Positions 14,905 through 16,562 of a stretch of DNA of 16,562 nucleotides are shown one piece after another. The stretch is from Vibrio tasmaniensis 1F-187 (GTDB lineage: Bacteria; Pseudomonadota; Gammaproteobacteria; Enterobacterales; Vibrionaceae). Position 1 is the first letter of the stretch. Every line of letters begins with the position of its first letter. The stretch spans positions 1-16,562 of the forward strand of contig NZ_AJZM02000100.1 of assembly GCF_000272405.2 (NCBI RefSeq). Reading direction: 5' to 3'. Both the position numbers and the translations under genes were made by a program. The notes below the pieces were generated by a model. That model did not search any database, was not told the DNA's origin, and saw only the letters and a program-made list of their open reading frames with translations.

Positions 14905-16562
14905 TTACTCCTCCGAGTGACTAGGTCTACTGTACAGATAACCTTGATGTAGGTTGTAGCCTAACTGACATAAGATATATTGCTGCCTGCGCGTCTCGAC
15001 ACCTTCATAAATCATCGTGATGTTTGATAAGCGTCCAATCTCCGATATATTAAGCAATACTCCTTGATGATAATCTCCTGACTCAATGTCTTTAACAAAA
15101 CAACGATCCAGTTTTAGGTAGGTCGGAGAGATAGCACTAATTATTTCAATGTTGTTGTTACCTGTACCAAAGTCGTCTAGCGCGATGGTGATTCCAAGAT
15201 CTTTGATCATTTTGATGTTGTCGATGACCTCATAGCCATAGCCAATGTTTGAATACTCTGTTATTTCTACGACAAACTCATTCGCTTCCATCGTGACTAA
15301 ATGCTCTTTGAGCTTTGTAAAGTTAGATCCCACCAACGCACTCGGGCACACATTGACACCGTAGATATCATGGCTATTGTCTAACTTCGCTTTTTTTACT
15401 GTTTCAATGATTAAAATAGTATGAAAGGTCAACAAATTAGTACGTCTCATGGTGTTGATGAAACTCAGAACGCCTACGTTACGCACTCTAGACAATAACT
15501 CGTAATATAAAACGCTATTGTCGTCAGTGTTGATTATGGGCTCTTCCTCGAAGGATATGTGTCGCCAACGAAGCAGGTAAATGCCAAAGCCAAGAATATA
15601 TGAGCGATAAAGTAGCGTGGCGATCACCAGAGAAAAAATGACCCACAGAAGCACAATATCATCACTGTAGAAAGTGATGGTTGCACCGGTTGGAAGTGGG
15701 GCTTGATAAATCGGCTGACTGTTTTCGCCTAGGTTTAATATGTAGTGACCATTTTTTTGTATGGAAACTGAATCAACCAAAAGAGGGAGTAATGAGTTCT
15801 TATATCTAGCTTCAATAGACCATTTAGAAATACGCGCAATGAGTTCGATGTCCTCTTTGGGGTCTGAGAAGCGTGAATAAGCAAAATCTAGGCTATCGTC
15901 AAAGTTTTCAATTTGGTCTAGTTCAACCATTTTTGATTGTGTTTTGGATATGTAGCATGAACCATAAGGCGTTGTCATCAAAACAGAATCCAGGTTAAGT
16001 GAGTGCCTCAATGCGTACACTGCAACTTCGCTATCACAGCCATAGTTCATTACTTCCTCTACTATTTGCTTTGCGTTTTTACTGTATTCATCTGCAATTT
16101 TCGTTGTATAAAGGATTTGGAAGAAGTAGACAACGAACAAAAAAAATGAAGAAACGGTACAAACGGCTATAAAGCCTCTGATCAACTCTTTTTGGTAAGT
16201 GTTGAGCATCAGCTTCAACATCTCGATATGGCTGAGCTTGAATTGGTTGATGTTGTATTTTGGTGTTATACGGTTGGTTGTACTTTTATCTAGGTCGATA
16301 AAATAACCAACCTTATAAAGGTTCGAGATAAGTTCACTATTATTGTTAATTTTGGCTTTCTTACACAGATTCCTATACTTTTTTCTTATCGAAGCAATAA
16401 TGTTCTTTAAAGCGTACAAGCTGAACTCTTCATCGAAGTGTAATTTAAATGACTTTTCAACATCTCTAGCAGATTGAGGGTTTGATATCGATGAATGCTC
16501 AATAAGATATTTAAAAACAAAACTTTCTTTACTATTAAGACTTTCCTCTGATATCTTATTAC
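14905..16562 (-). CDS. Winged helix - TM - CSS sensor - TM - EAL protein (c-di-GMP phosphodiesterase), 5' end outside the window
   Basis: A minus-strand frame open from the right edge to TAA at 14905; its start lies beyond 16562, and the TTG at 16419 is probably internal. Numbering from that TTG: residues 1-42 plus ~47 upstream residues resemble an OmpR/ToxR/CadC winged helix, with recognition helix YALKNIIASIRKKY and wing ELISNLYKVGYFID. Helix 82-104 spans the membrane. Residues 105-253 are periplasmic with C128-D-S and C155, matching the paired cysteines of the CSS-motif domain (PdeC-type). A second membrane helix is ~254-276. Residues ~300-504 form an EAL domain with E307 (ELL in place of EAL), N356, E388, D415-D416 in DDFGTG, K436, E472/E475 and Q492, so catalysis of c-di-GMP hydrolysis looks intact. 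A CSS-EAL protein with an added DNA-binding head would join periplasmic sensing to c-di-GMP and transcription. It runs off the edge; the fusion is seen in frame but the winged-helix call is by pattern. Confidence 0.85.
   Translation of the reverse strand, partial: NKISEESLNSKESFVFKYLIEHSSISNPQSARDVEKSFKLHFDEEFSLYALKNIIASIRKKYRNLCKKAKINNNSELISNLYKVGYFIDLDKSTTNRITPKYNINQFKLSHIEMLKLMLNTYQKELIRGFIAVCTVSSFFLFVVYFFQILYTTKIADEYSKNAKQIVEEVMNYGCDSEVAVYALRHSLNLDSVLMTTPYGSCYISKTQSKMVELDQIENFDDSLDFAYSRFSDPKEDIELIARISKWSIEARYKNSLLPLLVDSVSIQKNGHYILNLGENSQPIYQAPLPTGATITFYSDDIVLLWVIFSLVIATLLYRSYILGFGIYLLRWRHISFEEEPIINTDDNSVLYYELLSRVRNVGVLSFINTMRRTNLLTFHTILIIETVKKAKLDNSHDIYGVNVCPSALVGSNFTKLKEHLVTMEANEFVVEITEYSNIGYGYEVIDNIKMIKDLGITIALDDFGTGNNNIEIISAISPTYLKLDRCFVKDIESGDYHQGVLLNISEIGRLSNITMIYEGVETRRQQYILCQLGYNLHQGYLYSRPSHSEE

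Follow-up and report, generated by a model that had tools for sequence, protein, structure and literature searches.

We analysed the 16,562-nucleotide contig NZ_AJZM02000100.1 of Vibrio tasmaniensis 1F-187 (hereafter the window; it is the entire contig C99 of an assembly of 435 contigs). The product of the minus-strand gene that is cut by its right-hand end is probably a TpdA-type trigger phosphodiesterase integrated in the membrane, that is, an activator of its own promoter gated by cyclic di-GMP (c-di-GMP). The protein combines an EAL domain whose conserved residues are intact with a DNA-binding domain, the combination that, together with c-di-GMP-dependent promoter control, we took to define a trigger phosphodiesterase. 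Its architecture, fold, conservation and family, and the unique conserved repeat at its relatives' promoters, were computed in this study; c-di-GMP gating and autoactivation are carried over from TpdA genetics. A first-pass annotation, made from the letters alone, had proposed a winged helix fused through the membrane to a CSS-type redox sensor and an active-looking EAL domain, which could act as the trigger coupling c-di-GMP levels to DNA binding. The winged helix, the membrane passage, a periplasmic cysteine pair and the EAL domain were all supported, and the trigger idea fits the published genetics of the homologue TpdA (PMC10269520). The CSS-type label had to be dropped, and the combination, which had seemed unusual, is already found in TpdA, whose full-length architecture is the same. 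That TpdA is a trigger phosphodiesterase was already known; what the analysis contributes is the reading as a ToxR-type protein, a putative operator dedicated to the gene, the cysteine pair that never varies and the paralogues with a degenerate EAL domain.

Relationship to TpdA

A BLAST comparison of the window protein with TpdA gave 26.6% identity over 548 positions (E value 2.3e-54), with identical domain order. The protein aligned to positions 32-568 of 570 of the TpdA model (NCBIfam NF051476), which is nearly the whole model. The curated cut-off of this equivalog, 1000 bits, was reached neither by the truncated window protein (246.9 bits) nor by the full-length orthologue L030 (256.3 bits), and L223 from Vibrio genome G236 passed it with 1082 bits. 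By full-length sequence homology and the same domain order, the window protein is a member of the TpdA-like family in a wider sense. The published tpdA primers (PMC12405303, Table 1) match L223 at positions 875-894 and 1563-1582 of the gene and, with one mismatch, at 1285-1304, and the published deletion of nucleotides 1305-1562 fits exactly if counted from the ATG of MIRFELGN ahead of the winged helix. TpdA itself therefore has the N-terminal winged-helix domain. Its promoter is induced in a TpdA-dependent manner as c-di-GMP falls, and raised c-di-GMP abolishes the induction otherwise seen without OpaR (PMC10269520). No description of a winged helix-transmembrane-periplasm-transmembrane-EAL architecture was found in the parts of the literature searched, which did not include the original TpdA report (J Bacteriol 2021, e00046-21), and the words EAL and c-di-GMP are absent from the main text of a survey of transmembrane transcription regulators (PMC10269533).

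The nearest relatives of the gene belong to splendidus-clade vibrios. Among the matches listed for 41 genomes, near full-length relatives occurred in nine, including the source genome (six at 71-85% identity, two at 26 and 31%), and the remaining matches listed comprised the EAL part only. In a named collection, 17 of the best 80 of 532 relatives were near full-length, all from Vibrio. A profile of the N-terminal part matched in 51 of 296 genomes at the family level, all of one genus; at the class level (369 genomes) it matched the source genome and one marginal 165-codon frame containing a stop.

The alignment of 35 rows (34 distinct sequences) comprised 24 of the 25 full-length loci (L004 was omitted), ten added relatives and the window. 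In its tree, supported branches set off four groups: A (the window and the splendidus clade), B (TpdA), C and D. In L200 and L201, the two members of group D, the winged helix and the periplasmic cysteine pair persist but most EAL motifs are gone (for example MTDFG for DDFG and YTGVD for EGVE). Between A and D the winged helix is 31% identical, against 27% between A and B, whereas the EAL domain is 23% identical, against 38%. This pattern supports the view that the regulatory output may outlive the enzyme.

Gene frame and true start

From its stop at 14905 the frame is uninterrupted as far as 16560, where the last complete codon of the contig lies (14905-16560, 551 codons plus the stop; this and all features below are on the minus strand). 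Another 29 codons, the first of the gene, fall outside the contig. The first-pass annotation had observed that the frame stays open beyond a nominal TTG start at 16419, and this extension is real: six orthologues with 71-85% identity align along its length and extend further upstream. In five of them an ATG lies 29 codons ahead of the window's first codon and is preceded by a conserved TAGGAGTT(G/A)AG, a ribosome-binding site. The sixth, L004 (genome G006), has a divergent extreme N-terminus and was kept as found. The TTG is the codon of residue 48, within the predicted helix alpha3, and is not the start codon. An accidental upstream frame, with a protein that begins near 16419, would agree with the TTG there being the mechanical open-reading-frame start. 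Against it, the upstream residues are kept in relatives as distant as 26-31% identity, the true ATG has the conserved ribosome-binding site and the TTG falls within helix alpha3, and we give this explanation practically no weight.

The likeliest location of the 29 missing codons is an assembly gap. When a 1.5-kb orthologous stretch covering the start region was compared with the source genome, only 24 bases at the contig edge matched, and neither a second copy nor the intervening DNA was found. The upstream neighbour of the orthologues, a PAS/GGDEF-EAL-like gene, had its best-identity match (80%, residues 7-71) at the extreme end of contig C244 (12233-12427 of 12443), so synteny appears continuous over the gap.

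An OmpR/ToxR-type winged helix at the N-terminus

Searches with profile hidden Markov models, which the annotation had suggested, bore out the EAL assignment and gave no Pfam match for the other two families named, Trans_reg_C and the CSS motif. EAL was the only Pfam family above cut-off in the window protein and its relatives; PF00486 (Trans_reg_C) did not match the window protein or its relatives up to an E value of 1, nor the domain up to 10 in the source genome. Because Pfam was negative for Trans_reg_C and CSS, profile-profile and structure comparisons were used. The full-length AlphaFold2 (AF2) model, made for orthologue L003 (mean predicted local distance difference test score 72.9), had a poorly modelled wing, and its Foldseek list was full of EAL structures. 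Therefore, the N-terminal domain was predicted alone, from L030. It was predicted as a winged helix with strands b1-b4, helices a1-a3 and a C-terminal hairpin, as expected of the Trans_reg_C fold by structure comparison, and hhalign against a Trans_reg_C set indicated profile homology as well. The window holds the C-terminal 92 of the approximately 121 residues (16285-16560), with strands 1-3 outside it. Mapped from the L030 model, the predicted recognition helix alpha3 (SLYALKNIIASIRKKYRNLCK) occupies 16360-16422, including the nominal TTG, and the predicted wing (ELISNLYKVGYFIDL) 16291-16335.

Could the protein be mainly a membrane c-di-GMP phosphodiesterase, in which the winged helix has lost its role in transcription and serves as a dimerisation or protein-contact module? 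The EAL domain is indeed the most conserved domain (91% identity within A, where the winged helix has 89%, and 38% between A and B, where it has 27%) and the only one that Pfam detects above cut-off. However, K81, N82, A85, S86, R88 and K90 of helix alpha3 (L030 numbering), the basic residues included, are invariant in alignment A2. For the winged helix, dS could be estimated in two of six pairs, and their ratios of nonsynonymous to synonymous substitution rates (dN/dS) were 0.025 and 0.040; the other four pairs gave no estimate. Furthermore, the group D paralogues retain this domain and both cysteines despite their decayed EAL motifs, and TpdA regulates its own promoter (PMC10269520). We consider this explanation quite improbable.

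Membrane passage and the periplasmic cysteine pair

Hydropathy of orthologue L006 and the AF2 model of L003 placed two transmembrane helices at 16114-16176 and 15595-15657 (mapped coordinates), flanking a predicted periplasmic domain of about 152 residues (15658-16113). This domain contains Cys175 (16036-16038; residue 204 in L030) and Cys202 (15955-15957; residue 231), which the annotation had numbered C128 and C155. Both are cysteine in all 35 aligned rows.

The CSS motif family (PF12792) did not match the window protein, nine members of A1 or five further relatives. The sole match in the source genome was a genuine CSS-EAL protein on contig C351 (G000:C351:2758-3282, L001); a genus-wide CSS search did not list this protein, and its absences were therefore not relied upon. 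Cys-Ser-Ser is absent at the second cysteine in all 35 rows, where YI, LV, LI, FI, YV, FV or VI follows instead. The two cysteines are 26 or 29 residues apart, compared with 25-31 in 30 Vibrio CSS proteins. Alignment of the periplasmic domain with CSS by hhalign put both cysteines in register and was marginal, with a P value of 0.021 and a probability of 2.3%; the lowest P value of 30 column shuffles was 0.083. Other modes and regions gave P values of 0.009-0.13 and a first, shallower alignment 0.17, the probability being 2.3% at most. Membership in the CSS family was not accepted on these grounds, and we describe the domain as CSS-like in layout. By analogy with PdeC (PMC8846402), the cysteine pair may have a redox role, and it probably forms a disulfide whose state would bias the dimer and hence both outputs.

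The EAL domain

The EAL domain (14920-15552; Pfam E value 7.4e-31) carries the motifs ELLSR, NVCPS, EITE, DDFGTGNNN, LKLD, EGVE and QG, and relatives match solved EAL structures. Which of these residues are catalytic we take from the EAL literature. Of the 16 rows displayed, 12, the window among them, retain the conserved residues; in L204 and L205a these are partly altered, and in L200 and L201 mostly lost. After DDFGTG the loop reads NNN in the window protein and TpdA, compared with YSS in several other EAL domains of neighbour proteins. Expression of TpdA lowered the c-di-GMP pool (PMC11315295). Given the motifs and the NNN loop shared with TpdA, the EAL domain is likely an active phosphodiesterase. 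A third cysteine, beside the conserved EAL asparagine (L030 residue 434; 15346-15348 in the window), is invariant in all 35 rows, those with decayed EAL motifs included.

A different weighting would make the protein a transcription factor of the ToxR kind that takes its main input from the periplasm (thiol state or another ligand), with the EAL domain as a c-di-GMP receptor of little physiological turnover. The invariance of the cysteine pair, the retention of everything else in the degenerate-EAL paralogues and the departure of the loop from YSS agree with this. The intact EAL residues of the window and most displayed rows argue against it, as does the lowering of c-di-GMP by TpdA with its identical loop, and we regard it as unlikely.

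Decayed-EAL paralogues that have the winged helix and the two periplasmic cysteines are seen in L200 and L201 (G062:C2 and G233:C1) and at L224:10272-12041; in L224 an OmpA-like gene and a gene encoding Asp-rich repeats, both identified by eye, follow. At L205:1808-7884 and L039, two family members stand near each other; chemoreceptor-like genes separate them and also follow them, and the EAL motifs of the first member are partly altered (EIVE, VKLG, EGVA). The gene is not intact everywhere, since copies in other vibrios are interrupted or shortened (L048, L209, L210, L211, L212).

Promoter repeats and gene neighbourhoods

Upstream of the subfamily A genes we found a direct repeat with a 20 bp period, TGGATAAAT-N11-TGGATAAATC, starting 249-260 bases before the ATG. 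It was detected by pattern in 13 of 14 sequences; the alignment shows a near match in the fourteenth, L034. By eye, it lies about 11 bases ahead of a conserved TTGTAA-N16-TATAAA, which we read as a putative promoter. Eight genomes were picked from about 30 that carry a subfamily A gene. With up to three mismatches allowed, each of the eight had exactly one site, always upstream of this gene, and the reversed-pattern control gave one match in all eight genomes. As there was no second site in the eight genomes, we propose no wider regulon. The repeat was not found in the V. tasmaniensis assembly itself. Of the upstream regions of six group C and two group D genes, that of L039 alone shows GGATA cores with a 20-base spacing, comparably far upstream.

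Subfamily B has, in place of the direct repeat, the inverted repeat TATATCC-N9-GGATAT about 98 bases ahead of the ATG. Six genomes were picked from about 19 carrying a subfamily B gene: in four the repeat is exact at the gene and found nowhere else, and in the other two it has one mismatch at the gene. One-mismatch sites away from the gene occurred at five places in the six genomes and were not commoner than those of the control with the reversed pattern, which gave 17 matches. The common GGATA core and a site dedicated to one gene would fit autoregulation, and we infer that the protein may bind the promoter repeat.

Neighbour identities were read by eye from the sequence. A pilin-like gene lies upstream in 11 of the 14 subfamily A loci; in nine it was recognised from its sequence, which in one case is a short frame, and in L032 and L033 from its size and position. 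GntR-like and ABC genes lie downstream in 12, as they do in the window (in L032 and L033 size was the guide, and L031 is cut after the first of these genes), and a large convergent gene is present in six, GGDEF-EAL-like where its sequence was seen. Serine-transporter- and serine-dehydratase-like genes are found upstream in all ten subfamily B loci whose flank was long enough, two of these loci having the same sequence.

Proposed mechanism and its significance

We propose that a cytoplasmic ToxR/CadC-like winged helix is joined by the first transmembrane helix to the periplasmic cysteine-pair domain and by the second back to a cytoplasmic EAL domain, which most likely binds and hydrolyses c-di-GMP. 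At low c-di-GMP levels, the EAL domain would leave its catalytic configuration and the winged helices would be free to pair on DNA, activating their own promoter through the direct repeat just upstream of the -35-like element. At high levels, the protein would be engaged as an enzyme and would not activate. Such c-di-GMP-dependent promoter control by this gene is suggested by the genetics of TpdA. As a bolder and tentative extension, possible and short of probable, the ToxR-type domain may be gated twice, by periplasmic disulfide state and by cytoplasmic c-di-GMP turnover, its own transcription being rewired through a dedicated direct-repeat operator, with pseudo-enzyme side branches keeping the regulator and the cysteine pair.

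For TpdA and its relatives, the analysis offers a structural reading as ToxR-type membrane regulators with the EAL as a second cytoplasmic domain, and it names a concrete candidate operator for splendidus-clade vibrios. The invariant cysteine pair could connect envelope redox state with c-di-GMP and transcription, and the decayed-EAL paralogues are a natural experiment on a trigger enzyme after loss of catalysis.

Comparison with known systems

Like ToxR/CadC-like one-component regulators, the window protein has a cytoplasmic OmpR-type winged helix N-terminal to a transmembrane helix and a periplasmic domain. ToxR-like receptors, however, are defined by and signal via a single transmembrane helix carrying the periplasmic sensor (PMC5430869), whereas here a second predicted helix leads back to a cytoplasmic EAL domain, which places the protein outside that definition. 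CSS-motif EAL phosphodiesterases such as E. coli PdeC share the two-cysteine periplasmic domain between two transmembrane helices ahead of EAL, with similar cysteine spacing; the window protein differs in lacking the Pfam match and Cys-Ser-Ser, in its hhalign probability of about 2%, and in carrying the extra winged helix. E. coli PdeL, also a trigger phosphodiesterase, is a soluble protein. It resembles the window protein in having a DNA-binding domain N-terminal to an active EAL domain and in autoactivation that is blocked by c-di-GMP, but its DNA-binding domain is a helix-turn-helix of the LuxR type and a transmembrane or periplasmic part is not described in the available text (PMC5052742). 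Klebsiella FimK likewise joins an N-terminal helix-turn-helix to EAL; unlike the window protein, it is a fimbrial-operon protein, for which the available text mentions no transmembrane or periplasmic part (PMC3419637). TpdA (VP1881 of Vibrio parahaemolyticus) differs in its sequence, with the window protein falling below the equivalog cut-off, in its inverted-repeat promoter element in place of the direct repeat, and in the sdaC/sdaA-like genes (by eye) that its group adjoins, where the window's group has other neighbours. Yet it has the same order of winged helix, transmembrane helix, periplasmic cysteine pair, transmembrane helix and EAL, and the same conserved EAL residues.
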